The position numbers and the translations under genes are program-made. Shown here piece by piece: positions 1 to 33,649 of a stretch of DNA of 33,649 nucleotides. Source of the stretch: a virus; IMG/VR virus record IMGVR_UViG_3300044641_000883, positions 1-33,649 of that record, one strand, 5' to 3'. The notes under the pieces are model-generated. The model was not told the origin of the DNA. It searched no databases and was given only the letters and a program-made list of their open reading frames with translations. How positions within the stretch are numbered: the first letter of the stretch is position 1; each line of letters begins with the position of its first letter.

Positions 1-127
1 TTTGGAAGCTAGATTGAATACGCATGAAGAAGTATGCGCTGAAAGATACAACGGTATTTGGGCGCGTCTTAAAAAGATAGAGACTATCCTTATCGGTAGT
101 GCTGGTGCAATCATCATGCTGCTTTTG
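1..127. repeat. Terminal direct repeat, left copy (circular closure)
   Basis: Bases 1-127 are identical to 33523-33649, ending at the same base of the holin-like gene. The repeat length of exactly 127 equals a common maximum k-mer of de Bruijn assemblers, so it most likely marks a circular contig rather than a physical terminal repeat. It lies inside coding sequence, and reading across it restores a complete gene. A real direct terminal repeat is not excluded by sequence alone. Confidence 0.95.
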
Positions 128-5277: not shown

Positions 5278-5354
5278 ATGATCCCCGCCCAAACTAAAAG
5301 AATAATCATGATGGCCATAGCCACCATAAAGCCTGTGAAAAAGTCGTCATTCAT
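5274..5354 (-). CDS. 26-aa transmembrane microprotein
   Basis: ATG 5354 lies 6 nt after a strong AAGGAG and overlaps the serine recombinase stop by ATGA. The stop TGA at 5274-5276 overlaps the next start (5277), again by ATGA. The 26 residues are MNDDFF, then a single hydrophobic helix (FMVAMAIMIILLVWAGII). Both overlaps and the ribosome site argue for a real gene. A lone membrane helix in a DNA recombination operon is unexpected; it could inhibit a host membrane enzyme or act in superinfection exclusion. Nothing in the sequence decides this. Confidence 0.75.
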   Translation of the reverse strand: MNDDFFTGFMVAMAIMIILLVWAGII

Positions 5355-6001
5355 GCTGCACTCCTTGAGATTAAGTTAGCTACTTGGCTGGCACCCCAGG
5401 TGCGGCCACCGCGTGATGTCTGCACACCGCGAGCTGTCAGCGCAGCTGCAATTGAGCGCAGGCTGGTTGAGCCAGTCTTGGCAATGATGTCGTCAATGAT
5501 GGGTTTAACGCGCTGTGCAAACTGATCTGCGCTTGCCTGGATGCTGGCAATGCCGGCAGCAGAGCCTGCTGATGGGTTTGGGCTACCTAGTTTGATGCCG
5601 CGAGCTTTAGCTGCCTGCAATGCTGCCTTAGTACGACGGCTAATCTCTTCGCGCTCATGCTGTGCAACCACTGCACGAATACCAAACTCAAGAGTGCCGG
5701 CGTGAGGCATGTCAGCTGCAACGATCTGAACACCAGAGTCGCGCAGCGTGAGCAGGAAAGCAGCCTGGCGTGATAAGCGGTCGATCTTGGCGATCAATAA
5801 AGCAGCGCCTGTGGCTTTGCACATAGCGATTGCAGCCTGCAGCTGTGGCCTGTCGTCGTGCTTGCCTGATTCGATCTCTGTAAATGAATGGATGATGCCG
5901 TCGGCGTACTGAATAACGGCTGCTTGCTGGGCTTCTAAGCCAAGGCCAGATGCGCCCTGGCGATCTGTTGATACACGAAAGTAAGCTACATATTTAGACA
6001 T
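5351..6001 (-). CDS. Small serine recombinase (resolvase/invertase type)
   Basis: This 216-aa protein has the serine recombinase catalytic domain: YFRVSTDRQ with nucleophile Ser 11 and Arg 9, GLEAQQAAV, ESGKHDDRPQL, IAKIDRLSR (Asp 74, Arg 75, Arg 78) and EREEISRRTKAALQAAKARG on the long E helix. The C-terminal 60 residues (TSLRSIAAALTARGVQTSRG, TWGASQVANLISR) form a helix-turn-helix DNA-binding region. At 216 aa it is far shorter than large serine integrases. It is first in the leftward operon, with a consensus-like promoter behind it. Roles to consider are resolution of multimers, inversion of a DNA segment, or a simplified integrase. No paired inverted crossover sites were recognised. Confidence 0.92.
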   Translation of the reverse strand: MSKYVAYFRVSTDRQGASGLGLEAQQAAVIQYADGIIHSFTEIESGKHDDRPQLQAAIAMCKATGAALLIAKIDRLSRQAAFLLTLRDSGVQIVAADMPHAGTLEFGIRAVVAQHEREEISRRTKAALQAAKARGIKLGSPNPSAGSAAGIASIQASADQFAQRVKPIIDDIIAKTGSTSLRSIAAALTARGVQTSRGGRTWGASQVANLISRSAA

Positions 6002-8709: not shown

Positions 8710-8786
8710 TGTTGCCATTTGATCCAATAGCAATAATTTGTTTATTTCGATGGGTTAAAGCCAAGTTGCGCGACAAGAACTCATGA
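8709..8786 (+). CDS. 25-aa microprotein
   Basis: The frame starts at ATG 8709 within TAATG, the stop of the previous gene, and ends at TGA 8784-8786, overlapping the ATG of the replication gene at 8783. The product has a hydrophobic start (LPFDPIAIICLFRW) and a basic tail (VKAKLRDKNS), so it may be peripheral on the membrane. Alternatively it only carries ribosomes to the replication gene, which lacks a strong Shine-Dalgarno (translational coupling). Confidence 0.55.
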   Translation: MLPFDPIAIICLFRWVKAKLRDKNS

Positions 8787-9715
8787 ATGCACTGCCCTCA
8801 AACGTCGTGGACTTCAAGCTACCCAAGAAGCCCAAGGTAAAAGAGAAGGAAGCCCTGCCAGACCAGCGCAGGATGACGATCATGCCCATCAGAGCCATCA
8901 CAGACAAGCGCATTACTGATGGGATGTTTAGGACATTAGCCTTGGTCTGCAGTTACGTCAACAGAGCTGGGATTACCTGGGTAAGCCAAGCCAGGTTAGC
9001 CAAGGACACAGGAACCAGTCGCCAAGCCATCAGCAAGCAGCTGGTTAAGCTCAGAGCTCTAGGCTACATCGAGACAGTATCCAAGGCATTCAAAGGCGTT
9101 AAGCCAGACACAGTGCGAGTTATCTTTGACCCAACTATTGACGTAGAGACAGCCATTGCAGTGACCAGCTCAATCGAAGACACCAGGCCACCAGAGATGA
9201 AAAGACAACAACAGAAAGAACTAGACAACACCATCGACACCGAAGGGTTGAAGCGAATCAACGACATGATCAAAGGGGTTGTCAAACCCATTAATCCACC
9301 AGCAAAGGAATATCAAATGCCTAACAATAGAGACACCATCACAGTCGCCAAGATGAAGAAAGAGATAGCAAAGCACAAACAAAAGACAGCATCAGGTGCA
9401 ACCCTAGAAGTTGCACCTACTGCTCAAATAATAGGCAGCCATACGCAACCTTATACGCAACCTCCAGAGGTTGCACATAACGAGGAAGAACGTAGTATTA
9501 GGTTAACCTTAAGTATTATTAATAAAGAATTAAATATAAGTTTAAATAATATTGAGGTTAACCTTATAGGCAACCTTGAGTTGACAGATGCAGAGTTGAC
9601 AACAGCATGCAGGATGTTAATAGAACGCTATCAATCCGAAGGACTTAACATTCCGACAAGCTCTGAGCAGGTAGCACATGATCTGCTGGTGATTGCGGTT
9701 GATGTCATGAAGTGA
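8783..9715 (+). CDS. O-like replication initiator with winged helix
   Basis: The 310-aa protein has an N-terminal DNA-binding domain (about residues 30-120): TDGMFRTLALVCSYVNRAGI, TWVSQARLAKDTGTSRQAIS, KQLVKLRALGYIETVSKAF, VRVIFDP. This is a helix-turn-helix with wing like those of phage replication proteins that recognise origin repeats. The middle (about 130-240) is polar and poorly conserved-looking. The C-terminal 70 residues (LTDAELTTACRMLIERYQSE) could bind a host helicase loader. As in lambda O, the polar linker region of the gene holds inverted and direct repeats next to a very AT-rich stretch (9394-9601). No phage helicase or polymerase is present, so host enzymes must be recruited. 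Confidence 0.8.
   Translation: MNALPSNVVDFKLPKKPKVKEKEALPDQRRMTIMPIRAITDKRITDGMFRTLALVCSYVNRAGITWVSQARLAKDTGTSRQAISKQLVKLRALGYIETVSKAFKGVKPDTVRVIFDPTIDVETAIAVTSSIEDTRPPEMKRQQQKELDNTIDTEGLKRINDMIKGVVKPINPPAKEYQMPNNRDTITVAKMKKEIAKHKQKTASGATLEVAPTAQIIGSHTQPYTQPPEVAHNEEERSIRLTLSIINKELNISLNNIEVNLIGNLELTDAELTTACRMLIERYQSEGLNIPTSSEQVAHDLLVIAVDVMK
9394..9418. repeat. Perfect inverted repeat inside initiator gene
   Basis: AGGTGCAAC (9394-9402) and GTTGCACCT (9410-9418) are exact reverse complements separated by 7 nt. The core GCAAC recurs in further repeats downstream (9441-9474 and 9570-9576). It is the first element of the candidate origin and a likely initiator dimer site. Confidence 0.75.
9441..9601. 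other. Candidate replication origin (iterons and AT-rich unwinding element)
   Basis: Direct repeats ATACGCAACC stand at 9441-9450 and 9453-9462, 12 bp apart. AGGTTGC (9468-9474) is their inverted core. AGGTTAACCTTA occurs twice (9500-9511 and 9555-9566) and flanks a 47-nt stretch (9509-9555) with only four G and no C, about 91% AT. GCAACCT returns at 9570-9576, and AGTTGACA is repeated at 9579-9586 and 9594-9601. This order of iterons and an unwinding element within an initiator gene matches the lambda-type origin. Its function is inferred. Confidence 0.65.
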
Positions 9716-9789
9716 TGATGCTGTTTAGACGCGATCTAAGGCATCTACAAGGCGACAACAGGTGGCAGGTAATAGGCAGGCATGGGTAA
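9715..9789 (+). CDS. 24-aa basic microprotein
   Basis: The frame starts at ATG 9715 inside TGATG, the stop of the initiator gene, with a second ATG following, and ends at 9789. The product is MMLFRRDLRHLQGDNRWQVI plus four residues, basic and amphipathic. The sequence looks protein-like, and the overlap suggests reinitiation. Confidence is limited by length. Confidence 0.45.
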   Translation: MMLFRRDLRHLQGDNRWQVIGRHG

Positions 9790-9927
9790 GGGTAGATCGT
9801 GGCTTGTAGAGCGTTTAAATCGGTGTGTACAAATCCCAATCGAACGTATGGGTTTTGGACAGGGGGGGTGGCTTGACGTGTCTAGGTTCGAGCGGGTCAG
9901 AGCAGACCTATGCGGGAGTGCGTCTTT

Positions 9928-9956
9928 ATTATCAATCCGATATTATCCGTTGTCAA
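9928..9956 (-). promoter_or_regulatory. Leftward (antisense) promoter candidate
   Basis: On the minus strand a perfect TTGACA (9956-9951) is followed after exactly 17 nt by GATAAT (9933-9928), one base from the sigma70 consensus. Transcription would start near 9921 and run leftward against the 24-aa frame and the initiator gene. There is no leftward gene downstream for 3.7 kb, so an antisense RNA is the natural reading. Confidence 0.55.
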
Positions 9957-10018
9957 AAAGGCACCCCTTGCCCCTCCCCCCGTCGGTAGCGCTTGGGGGG
10001 CTCCCTCGCAATTTTTCC

Positions 10019-10043
10019 TCACCTTTTTGGGTGATGGGTTTTT
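10019..10043 (+). terminator. Weak rho-independent terminator candidate
   Basis: TCACC (10019-10023) pairs with GGTGA (10030-10034) across a 6-nt loop, followed by TGGG and TTTTT (10039-10043). The stem is only 5 bp and the T-run is displaced, so it may only attenuate readthrough from the early operon. The C6/G6 hairpin just upstream (9976-10000) could add to it. Confidence 0.35.
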
Positions 10044-10066
10044 AACTTTACTTAAAGGAAAGCAAC

Positions 10067-10336
10067 ATGGCGTATGAACATAAGCCTGGCAATGGTAGTG
10101 CGTTTGCCAACAAAGAAAAGAAAGAGGATTGGCATGCTGATTTCCGTGGTGATGTGATGTTGCCTGATGGCAGCATTCATTACTTGGATGTTAAGCCTGC
10201 TGTGACTCAGGCTGGTGAGACGTACTACCGGGTCAAGATTGGTGGGGTTAAGGTTGCCAAGGGTGCTGCGCCGATGTCTGGCCATAACCAGGCGAAGGCT
10301 AATGGCTACCAGAACGATTCGGATATACCCTTCTGA
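10067..10336 (+). CDS. Small protein with SSB-type acidic C-terminal tip
   Basis: The 89-aa protein begins MAYEHKPGNGSAFANKEKKE, with a beta-rich core (WHADFRGDVMLPDG, IHYLDVKPAVTQAGETYYRV, KIGGVKVAK), and ends NDSDIPF. The last residues match the D-D-x-I/P-P-F tip through which single-stranded DNA binding proteins dock their partners. Short phage proteins with this start and tip are often placed next to replication or packaging genes. It may bind ssDNA or compete for host SSB partners. AAAGGAAAGC lies before the ATG. Its stop overlaps the small terminase start (TGATG). Confidence 0.75.
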   Translation: MAYEHKPGNGSAFANKEKKEDWHADFRGDVMLPDGSIHYLDVKPAVTQAGETYYRVKIGGVKVAKGAAPMSGHNQAKANGYQNDSDIPF

Positions 10337-30073: not shown

Positions 30074-31111
30074 ATGGCACTAAAAGGCAAGCCAATTGCG
30101 ATTGGCACAAGCGACACAACAATCTATACCTGCCCATCTACCATTGAAGCATCGGTGCATGGTCTAGTGTTTGCAAACAATACTGGCAGTGCTGTAACTA
30201 TTACTCTGAAAATTTATATACAGAGCTTAGGCACAACCACTACTGTGGCTACTGGCATATCTGTTGGTGCTAACACTACCTACACTTGGCCAAAACCAAT
30301 TAATGTAAATGCTGGTGATTACATCCAGGCGGCTGCATCTACTGGATCAGCGCTTGTTTGCTTCTACTCTGTTTATGAAGGATCGGCTGCTGCGGCTGCA
30401 GTTGGATTTACTCCGCGAGGTGCGTGGGGTTCGGGTTCAACGTATGCTGTTAATGATGTGGTTAGTTATAACGGCTCTAGCTACTTAGCTATTCAGGCAA
30501 GCACTAATCAACAACCAGATACACAGACTGCTTACTGGTTAGTGCTGGCAGCTAAAGGTGACACAGGCTCTGGTGATGTATCAGGCCCAGCATCATCGGT
30601 TGATTCTGAGATTGCATTGTTTGACAGTACGACAGGCAAGCTGATTAAACGTGCGTCACTGACAGGCTTGGTTAAGGCTACATCAGGCGTGGCATCTGCA
30701 GCTACTGCAGGCACAGATTACGTTGCTCCTTCCGGCGCTCTTGGTACGCCAAGCAGCGGCACACTAACCAACTGTACGGTTGATGGTACTAACCCTATTG
30801 GCTATCGTGATCTCCCTGCTGTTGGTACTAAGACGGGTTCGTATACGTTGGCTGTAGGTGATGTAGGTAAGTATGTGCAAGTAGGCTCAGGCGGCTCTAT
30901 AACGATTCCTGATGCTACGTTTGCTGAAGGTGACGCTATCTCTATTTTTAACAATACGAGTGGCAATATAACGATTACTTGCTCGATTACTACTGCTTAT
31001 ATTGCTGGTACTGATACTGACAAAGCTACGGTAACTCTAGCTACTAGAGGTATTGCTACTGTGTTGTTTATTAGTGGGACGGTTTGCGCCATCACAGGAA
31101 ACGTGTCATGA
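30074..31111 (+). CDS. Fibre-associated protein with CBM5/12-like domain
   Basis: The 345-aa protein starts with a beta-sandwich-like domain (about 1-105: IAIGTSDTTIYTCPSTIEAS, VHGLVFANNTGSAVTITLKI) common in fibre-attached proteins. Residues about 115-160 (GAWGSGSTYAVNDVVSYNGS, YLAIQASTNQQPDTQTAYW) match the aromatic pattern of carbohydrate-binding modules 5/12. A GDTGSGDVSGPASSVDSEIA linker and a C-terminal beta domain (TLAVGDVGKYVQVGSGGSIT, IPDATFAEGDAISIFNN) follow. It probably binds host surface glycan. It starts 2 nt after the fibre stop and overlaps the LamG gene by ATGA. Confidence 0.82.
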   Translation: MALKGKPIAIGTSDTTIYTCPSTIEASVHGLVFANNTGSAVTITLKIYIQSLGTTTTVATGISVGANTTYTWPKPINVNAGDYIQAAASTGSALVCFYSVYEGSAAAAAVGFTPRGAWGSGSTYAVNDVVSYNGSSYLAIQASTNQQPDTQTAYWLVLAAKGDTGSGDVSGPASSVDSEIALFDSTTGKLIKRASLTGLVKATSGVASAATAGTDYVAPSGALGTPSSGTLTNCTVDGTNPIGYRDLPAVGTKTGSYTLAVGDVGKYVQVGSGGSITIPDATFAEGDAISIFNNTSGNITITCSITTAYIAGTDTDKATVTLATRGIATVLFISGTVCAITGNVS

Positions 31112-33177
31112 GTGGCATTATGAATATGCTGGTAGCTGCTAAGACTACAGTAGCGGCTGCTGTTGACGAGTTCTTTAACCGTGTTACGTTGCTATTAAAC
31201 ACTAGCAGCACTAACGGAGCGCAGAATAATACGTTCTTAGATTCGTCTAGCAATAATTTTACGATTACTCGTAACGGTAATACTACGCAGGGAACATTTA
31301 CGCCGTTTAGTCAGACGGGGTGGGGCACATATTTTGATGGTAGCGGGGATTCATTTTCTGTTTCTACAAGTACCGTGTTAGATTTAAATGGCGCAATTGA
31401 TTTTACAATTGAAGCATGGGTATACCTGACTGGGTATGGAAGCACTGCAGATATGTCGTTAAATATTGCCAACAAGTTTAGTGGCGCTGGTGGGCTTGGT
31501 TATTCTTACGGAATTTTGGGTGGTGGCGCAAATCAAGGAAAGATTCAGTTTTATGGCGCTGCTGGATCAGTTAGCATACTTTCGACAAATGTTATCCCGC
31601 TTAATAGTTGGAATCATGTAGCCATAGTAAAAAATGGAACAACTTATACGCATTATTTGAATGGCGTTGCAAATAATTCACAAACAACCGCAACAACATT
31701 AAGTGCATCTACTAATGCTTTGGTTATTGGAGACTACGGGTATTCAGATGACTTTTTGGGGTATATGTCTAACCTAAGAATAACAAAGAGCGGCGCTCTA
31801 TATACCGGTACATTCACACCATCGACATCCCCGCTTACAACAACTGTAAGTGCAGGAACAGTCTCACTACTAACCTTTCAAAGCAACAGATTTGTCGATA
31901 ACAGCAGCAACGGATTTACGCTAACCCCAACCGGCACACCATCCGTCCAAGCCTTCTCTCCATTTGCTCCTACTGCTGCATACGATGCTGCTGTAGTAGG
32001 TGGTAGTGGGTATTTTGATGGTACGGGGGATTATTTAACGCTTCCTTATTCCTCGCAGCTTCAGTTTACAGGTGACTTTACGATTGAATTTTGGGCGTAT
32101 CCTTTGACTCAGGTGCAATCTGCTGCTGGAGTCATAAATAACTATAGTTCTTGGCCTTCATCTACAGGATTTGCAATCTTCTGTGGGCATTCATCAGCAA
32201 GCTCTACAAAATGGTGCGTTGCTTTGTTTGGCACGTTTCCGGCAATCACTAGCACTAACGACTTCATCAAAAATGCTTGGTCACATATTGCTTTAGTCCG
32301 CAATGGCACTGGCACAAATAACATAACCCTATATGTAAATGGTGTCGCATCAGGAACGACAACGAGCAATAACACTGTTACTGGAACCGCAAATAATTGG
32401 TGGATTGGCACTACTGGAGACACCGTAACTCAAACATTTACTGGTTATTTAGCAGGATTAAGAGCAATTAATTCCGCAGCGTACACAAGTGCGTTTACTC
32501 CTCCTACTGCTCCTCTTGCGGCTGGTAGTAATAAGCTCCTGCTCAATTACACCAACGCCGGCATCTTCGACTCTACTGCTAAGAATGTATTAGAGACAGT
32601 AGGCAATGCACAGGTAAGCACGACACAGGCTAAGTTTGGTACTACGTCGATGTATTTTGATGGTACTGGCGATTATTTAACATTGCCAGTATCTAAATCT
32701 TTTGAATTTGGTTCGGCAAATTGGACAATAGAATTCTGGTTATATGTTCCTTCTTTGCCAAGCACTAGGAAAGAATTATTATATTTAAACGCTAATAGTT
32801 CTGGATACGCAGCAGTAGCTTTACATATTTGCACTAATAATAAGTTAGGTTTGTCATTTTCTGAATCTGGTGGTTCATGGAGAGCTGACGATACTACTGG
32901 AGTTGGTTCTGCTTTAACTGCTGCAACTTGGCAATATGTGGCTGTAACAAGAAGCGGTCAAAACATTCAAATATATCTTGATGGAACTGCTCAAGGTTCT
33001 GCATATACAACTACTGCTGCTACAACTTCATTAATGACAACATATACTTTGAATCAAATAGCAACCTATAACACTGCGTCTTACCAGTTTAACGGGTATA
33101 TGGACGAATTAAGAATTACTATTGGTCAAGCTAGAACTGTAACTTCTGTTCCAACCGCAGCCTTCCCCATCCAATAG
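31108..33177 (+). CDS. Receptor-binding protein with three LamG-like domains
   Basis: ATG 31108 (ATGA overlap) is preferred over an upstream ATG at 31084, giving 689 aa. After a short helix (MSGIMNMLVAAKTTVAAAVD) there are three concanavalin/LamG-like sandwiches, each opened by YFDGSGDSFSVS, YFDGTGDYLTLP or YFDGTGDYLTLP and followed by DFTIEAWVYL, DFTIEFWAYP or NWTIEFWLYV, with later WxHVAIV/WSHIALV/WQYVAVT strands. RFVDNSSNGFTLTPTGTPSV links the first two. Such domains bind sugars or proteins on the cell surface. The second and third units are the most alike, suggesting duplication. No reverse transcriptase is present for diversification. Confidence 0.87.
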   Translation: MSGIMNMLVAAKTTVAAAVDEFFNRVTLLLNTSSTNGAQNNTFLDSSSNNFTITRNGNTTQGTFTPFSQTGWGTYFDGSGDSFSVSTSTVLDLNGAIDFTIEAWVYLTGYGSTADMSLNIANKFSGAGGLGYSYGILGGGANQGKIQFYGAAGSVSILSTNVIPLNSWNHVAIVKNGTTYTHYLNGVANNSQTTATTLSASTNALVIGDYGYSDDFLGYMSNLRITKSGALYTGTFTPSTSPLTTTVSAGTVSLLTFQSNRFVDNSSNGFTLTPTGTPSVQAFSPFAPTAAYDAAVVGGSGYFDGTGDYLTLPYSSQLQFTGDFTIEFWAYPLTQVQSAAGVINNYSSWPSSTGFAIFCGHSSASSTKWCVALFGTFPAITSTNDFIKNAWSHIALVRNGTGTNNITLYVNGVASGTTTSNNTVTGTANNWWIGTTGDTVTQTFTGYLAGLRAINSAAYTSAFTPPTAPLAAGSNKLLLNYTNAGIFDSTAKNVLETVGNAQVSTTQAKFGTTSMYFDGTGDYLTLPVSKSFEFGSANWTIEFWLYVPSLPSTRKELLYLNANSSGYAAVALHICTNNKLGLSFSESGGSWRADDTTGVGSALTAATWQYVAVTRSGQNIQIYLDGTAQGSAYTTTAATTSLMTTYTLNQIATYNTASYQFNGYMDELRITIGQARTVTSVPTAAFPIQ

Positions 33178-33514: not shown

Positions 33515-33649
33515 GTGGACGATTTGGAAGCTAGATTGAATACGCATGAAGAAGTATGCGCTGAAAGATACAACGGTATTTGGGCGCGTCTTAAAAAGAT
33601 AGAGACTATCCTTATCGGTAGTGCTGGTGCAATCATCATGCTGCTTTTG
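33515..33649 (+). CDS. Holin-like small membrane protein (5' part; gene spans the circular join)
   Basis: The start is GTG 33515 with AGGGGA about 7 nt upstream, overlapping nothing. The frame is GTG GAC GAT TTG, and the window ends inside the transmembrane helix codons. Joined to bases 128-148 the product is 51 aa: MDDLEARLNTHEEVCAERYN, then IWARLKKIE, the membrane helix and KG. The description of the whole protein is under the 3' part at 2-148. Confidence 0.75.
   Translation, partial: MDDLEARLNTHEEVCAERYNGIWARLKKIETILIGSAGAIIMLLL
33523..33649. repeat. Terminal direct repeat, right copy
   Basis: This segment is identical to bases 1-127. Removing one copy gives a 33,522-bp circle and restores the holin-like gene. 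Confidence 0.95.

Follow-up and report, generated by a model that had tools for sequence, protein, structure and literature searches.

Lambda and the staphylococcal plasmids already provide cases of replication origins placed inside initiator genes, but few examples show how such initiators change their DNA specificity. The lambda ori is the published parallel among phages, its origin lying within the O gene (PMC7466680, PMC6022878). Among plasmids, the Rep protein of pSK41 (RepA_N, 319 aa) has a winged-helix N-domain and an origin located centrally in rep, while the Rep of pPR9 carries a phage-like N-domain of the PF13730 family, and the rep region of this plasmid can sustain autonomous replication (PMC5703833). 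A further published parallel is the RepA/ori pair of the PLE satellites (PMC8263062).

The locus described here belongs to an uncultivated virus, whose complete record of 33,649 nucleotides (33.6 kb) was analysed as a whole and is referred to as the window. Judging from sequence analysis, positions 9394-9575 are very probably a theta-type replication origin lying within its initiator gene. The origin is of the known origin-in-initiator kind, both lambda-like and plasmid-like, with a PF13730 initiator outside the Pfam family of lambda O. As in ori-lambda (also in phi80, 82 and Stx phages), the origin is placed centrally within the initiator gene, with iterons followed by an AT-rich tract, and the protein shares with lambda O a DNA-binding N-domain, a flexible linker over the origin and a C-terminal partner domain. 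However, the initiator showed no BLASTP similarity to lambda O and no match to PF04492 (Phage_rep_O) up to an E-value of 1, lambda O itself scoring 123 bits; moreover, the half-sites are a mixture of direct and convergent ones, in contrast to the four 18-bp inverted repeats of lambda, and no P-like gene was found. Thus, the label of lambda-type origin given by the sequence-only reading holds as an analogy, with iterons in the initiator's own gene beside an AT tract, but does not extend to the lambda O family or to a P-like partner. On the plasmid side, the N-domain family (PF13730) is that of the Rep of the staphylococcal pPR9 and pUSA03, and the initiator may resemble pSK41-type Rep in the fold of its N-domain (Foldseek, weak E-values), while RepA_N (PF06970) was not matched at E-values up to 1; these systems are plasmids, whereas the present one is a phage. 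The PLE ori is unlike it in being intergenic, with semi-palindromic iterons of about 30 bp and a RepA_N domain. The novelty lies in how large the family is, in the predicted two-residue code for recognition and in the naturally occurring swaps of a cassette.

Initiator gene, iterons and AT-rich segment

The initiator gene (8783..9715, plus strand) encodes 310 aa and was recognized by profile matches to HTH_36 and PHROG_678. The HTH_36 winged helix (PF13730) covered residues 43-96 with an E-value of 3.8e-8 and 33.4 bits, the curated cut-off being 25. Replication-initiator PHROGs were the top matches, the best being phrog_678 ('replication initiation O-like', E-value of 1.9e-9), which lambda O also matches (E-value of 1.7e-35). 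A first AlphaFold2 (AF2) model from ten sequences was poor (mean pLDDT of 60) and was replaced by one from 37 sequences (mean pLDDT of 70.9). In the latter, a winged-helix DNA-binding domain (residues 46-113; 8918..9121, plus strand; pLDDT 76-92) leads into helices that extend to about residue 200; a disordered linker (202-232) then connects these to a helical domain at the C-terminus (234-309; 9482..9709, plus strand) with helices at 234-250, 256-263, 269-285 and 294-309, which is presumed to recruit the replisome. R80 to K85, whose codons occupy 9020..9037 (plus strand), are the first residues of the predicted recognition helix (80-93). Foldseek placed the N-domains of pSK41-type Rep (4pt7, 4pql and 5kbj) among the best PDB matches, with weak E-values (0.01-0.05), probabilities of 0.97-0.99 and a TM-score that was low with the full-length query, while a PDB search with the family profile returned only generic winged-helix regulators. 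No promoter driving the gene rose above chance in a simple sigma-70 scan.

The iterons are five GCAACC-type half-sites in the 3′ part of the initiator gene, arranged as palindromes and 12-bp direct repeats. The first pair is a perfect 9-bp inverted repeat, AGGTGCAAC/GTTGCACCT (9394..9418), with half-sites at 9398-9403 (plus strand, GCAACC) and 9409-9414 (minus strand, GCAACT). The second array (9441..9475) has half-sites at 9445-9450 and 9457-9462 on the plus strand and at 9469-9474 on the minus strand, so ordered that a 12-bp direct repeat is followed by the convergent pair GCAACCTCCAGAGGTTGC. In particular, ATACGCAACC appears at 9441 and 9453, 12 bp apart, these being its sole two plus-strand copies in the genome. 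Exact GCAACC words start at 9398, 9445, 9457 and 9570, and GGTTGC at 9469; the lone half-site 3′ of the AT-rich segment (9570..9575, plus strand) has a CAACC counterpart in several relatives. The 12-bp spacing and the convergent pairs were also seen again in relatives.

The AT-rich segment, presumed to be the DNA unwinding element, spans 9509..9555 and is 91% AT (24 A, 19 T, 4 G and no C), being the 47-mer of lowest G+C content in the 33.6-kb genome. It is flanked by two copies of AGGTTAACCTTA, on the left at 9500..9511 and on the right at 9555..9566. The inverted repeat, the direct repeats, the GCAACC/GGTTGC cores, the AGGTTAACCTTA flanks and the C-free segment were all confirmed at the positions previously proposed. 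The minimum of G+C content was located 90-230 nt 3′ of the first iteron in 78 out of 79 relatives, at 21% GC within genes of 54% GC. On the other hand, the AGGTTAACCTTA pair is clade-specific, being confined to the closest relatives, with the second copy already mutated in two of them (L005 and L020), and only six of the 79 relatives had a C-free segment; since relatives lack them, both the pair and the absence of C were discarded as defining features.

Co-variation of the iterons with the recognition helix

A total of 161 distinct initiator genes were compared for co-variation between protein and iterons. Glutamine at position 80 was accompanied by ACAACC in 81 out of 81 genes, arginine by GCAACC in 34 of the 36 R80 genes having a CAACC core, and lysine by TCAACC or a T/A mixture in 13 of 14. 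At position 85, asparagine was found with a GGACAC core in all 27 cases, a core present in none of the 134 genes having lysine or arginine there; in this N85 subgroup (L084, L089, L103, L109, L115, L123, L126, L146 and their kin), ATAGGACAC/GTGTCC replaces GCAACC. An unbiased scan over 294 alignment columns for predictors of iteron type gave the same two positions, as column 80 ranked first among the non-iteron columns for the base preceding CAACC (0.77, the next column reaching 0.29) and column 85 for the iteron core (0.61, the next 0.26). This ranking controls for relatedness, because a single phylogeny is common to all columns. Columns 206, 211, 221, 225, 226 and 231 likewise followed the type of iteron, and were rejected as evidence of recognition because they are encoded by or within the iteron array itself.

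A tree was constructed with the helix columns left out, and on it at least eight changes occurred at residue 80. Among the supported independent phylogenetic pairs, the four available for N85 all agreed (P-value of 0.125) and the two for Q80 agreed in nearly all pairings, numbers that are too few for formal significance. Moreover, three genes with Q80, K85 and ACAACC iterons (L105, L112 and L114) were nested within the R80 N85 GGACAC clade. Exceptions were found as well: a mixed A/T base in the GVTKQ clade, the GGCAACA variant in L024, L026 and L125 and, as the clearest breach of the residue-80 rule, the R80 genes L077 and L078 with GACAACC/GTCAACC iterons, for which another residue of the helix or the wing must contribute.

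Involvement of positions 1 and 6 of a recognition helix, and contacts of arginine with G and of glutamine with A, are what would be expected of helix-turn-helix proteins. The winged-helix N-domain would bind the GCAACC half-sites; residue 80 would read the base 5′ of CAACC (R for G, Q for A and K for T), and residue 85 would select the core (K or R for CAACC, N for GGACAC). This putative two-residue code would be the first to be proposed from sequence for an initiator of this kind; no earlier account of such a code was found in the open-access literature.

The co-variation speaks for recognition and not for its purpose, and the repeats might be read as operators from which the winged-helix protein, being a transcription regulator and no initiator, represses its own gene from inside, as HTH_36 and MarR-like folds are also found in regulators. 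However, this is improbable. The array lies 0.6 kb into the gene, and no half-site exists just 5′ of it, since neither GCAACC nor GGTTGC occurs between 7005 and the array; further points against it are the AT-rich segment, kept at its distance in 78 out of 79 relatives, the replication-initiator PHROGs as best matches, and the C-terminal domain that comes after the array, an arrangement also seen in lambda O and pSK41 Rep. Furthermore, no second replication initiator, helicase or polymerase was recognized in the genome by profile searches.

Apparent cassette exchange and conservation of the DNA in the probable origin

Several initiator genes were chimeric. In the pairs formed by L033/L030, L063 and L069/L047, and L027/L028, identity was 65-68% over the first 390 nt and 91-99% from the AT-rich segment to the stop codon. 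The switch fell at nucleotide 720 of the gene or slightly beyond, which corresponds to 9503 in the window, i.e. the junction between iterons and AT-rich segment, and 19 of the 20 chimeric pairs differed in iteron type. The reverse combination, with DNA-binding domains more than 90% identical and C-terminal domains less than 55% identical, was found in 31 pairs. As the chimeric types were recovered from several independent samples, single assembly errors are unlikely. Because the parent changes at the iteron/AT junction, the DNA-binding domain and the iterons appear to move as a cassette. A like exchange has been published for pPR9 and pSK41, where the block of N-domain and origin is swapped and the C-domain stays (PMC5703833), and for the RepA of PLE (PMC8263062), and lambdoid phages have known hybrid O proteins with another specificity (Furth and Yates 1978, as cited in PMC6022878).

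The array might instead be a packaging (pac) site or a site for some other protein, such as the terminase, whose genes begin about 0.7 kb further downstream (10336); the related contigs open at varied points, as circularly permuted genomes would. This is very improbable, as the base and core of the iterons are best predicted by two positions in the initiator's own recognition helix, and as its DNA-binding domain and the iterons travel together in the chimeras.

Returning to the origin, its DNA was conserved where the protein drifts. Against the four closest relatives, synonymous differences over codons 204-264 numbered 0/61, 0/61, 0/61 and 2/59, compared with 7-21 out of 94-95 over codons 1-100. 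The iterons encode the linker (residues 204-233) and the AT-rich segment the start of the C-terminal domain, and these residues are the least conserved in the protein: the mean pairwise amino-acid identity among 80 representatives was 0.60 for the DNA-binding domain, 0.31 for the iterons and 0.25 for the AT-rich segment. Array and segment are nevertheless kept in the relatives, with a median of five iteron sites. In all 11 genomes considered (the window and ten relatives), the densest cluster of each genome's own iteron word lay in the initiator gene. Loss of the repeats with retention of the protein was looked for among the relatives and did not occur.

The repeats were also compared with a null model of 5000 synonymous-codon shuffles, which kept protein and codon usage. 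A total of 14 matching 9-mer pairs were observed, compared to a mean of 0.74 in the shuffles, none of which had as many. The count of CAACC cores gave weaker evidence (5 vs. 2.3 expected, reached in 123 out of 5000 shuffles), and the repeat pairs were thus taken as the test. The minimum G+C count per 47 nucleotides was 4 (mean of 11.6 in the shuffles), and none of the 5000 went as low. None of the other 24 genes of the window was significant for repeats or AT minimum, while lambda O, as positive control, showed the same repeat signature (13 pairs vs. 1.4 expected, 0 out of 200 shuffles), its AT tract being merely borderline (P-value of 0.06). Together with the retention of array and AT-rich segment and the co-variation with the helix, this control gives strong support to the earlier proposal of an initiator gene containing its own iterons and an unwinding segment. 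That the repeats are a mere by-product of a low-complexity linker (HTQP-type repeats) without function in the DNA is hardly credible, for although the linker is disordered in the model and repetitive in several relatives (HSQPHSQP), amino-acid repeats cannot yield inverted copies, the signal is lost in the codon shuffles, the encoded residues vary with iteron type while the DNA pattern is constant, and synonymous sites are almost frozen.

For the origin, a mechanism can be proposed in which binding of the initiator to the array would distort the duplex, so that the adjacent AT-rich segment opens, and the C-terminal helical domain would itself recruit the replicative helicase or primase of the host. 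Direct recruitment is favoured, by analogy with known systems, because searches of the window and ten relatives gave no gene for lambda P (PF06992), DnaB (PF03796) or a DnaC/IstB-type loader (PF01695); this absence rests on family profiles, by which a divergent loader could be missed, and the PF06992 search detected its control in E. coli. A contact with DnaG has been described for pSK41 Rep (PMC5703833). The iteron-encoded linker would be disordered and free to drift, and therefore DNA sites and protein could share one sequence; as the origin lies between two domains, recombination could swap the DNA-binding domain and its iterons as a matched cassette. A broader proposal is put forward only tentatively: the clade may use a single-protein, loader-free initiator whose specificity comes mainly from two helix residues, repeatedly changed by point changes at 80 and 85 and by cassette swaps at the iteron/AT junction, as a diversifying incompatibility or anti-parasite system comparable to that of ICP1 against PLE.

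One family offers dozens of natural variants, a simple and testable two-residue code and chimeras with a defined breakpoint. Origins in uncultivated phages may become predictable with no more than the sequence of the initiator, and it becomes directly testable how origin specificity, incompatibility and the recruitment of a host helicase without a phage loader evolve.

Genome context and GC skew

The first and last 127 bp of the window (1-127 and 33523-33649) are identical. Among ten related contigs, end repeats of 127 bp were found in four, the others having 100, 70, 48 or none, and the contigs start at differing genes. Most likely, the 127-bp ends are an assembler overlap rather than true terminal repeats, and the genome is therefore probably circular and closed, with a length of about 33.5 kb. 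The variable end repeats and contig openings suggest circular or circularly permuted genomes. The gene set is podovirus-like (terminase, head-tail connector, major head protein, tail and internal virion proteins, endolysin and spanin). Genes for recombination are also present, RecE/RecT-like and RusA-like ones as well as one for a serine recombinase. Protein and DNA searches of 50,697 phage records gave no isolate relative, and the bacterial genomes searched with the initiator gave one weak match (31%), while members of the initiator family are encoded on at least 437 contigs from viral metagenomes.

In genomes that are short and mosaic, a skew marking the origin is often missing. The sequence-only reading had noted a change in the sign of the skew between about 9.2 and 10.15 kb and had expected the cumulative GC skew to turn near 9.5 kb. 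A local dip was indeed present, the 1-kb skew being -0.03 at 8.5-9.5 kb and positive on either side, but it was no turning point: the detrended cumulative skew was lowest at 5691, where a block of minus-strand genes ends, and so coincided with gene orientation. In ten circular relatives the minimum was never at the array, falling 22 to 32 kb beyond the gene start. GC skew was consequently rejected as a mark of the origin.

Beside the RecE/RecT-like minus-strand genes, a small serine recombinase (5351-6001, minus strand) was identified by a Resolvase domain and a DNA-invertase PHROG. Between the initiator gene and the next ORF, about 350 bp without a clear gene (9716-10066) hold two terminator-like hairpins and a G-run, and the minus strand there has a strong sigma-70-like match (9956-9928, 11/12). 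That ORF (10067-10336, 89 aa) showed a very weak match (E-value of 0.08) to a family of phage proteins that bind single-stranded DNA and could be a replication accessory. Finally, a 697-aa protein (31084-33177) had three stretches matching virion structural and baseplate families, and is apparently a tandem-domain tail adhesin.
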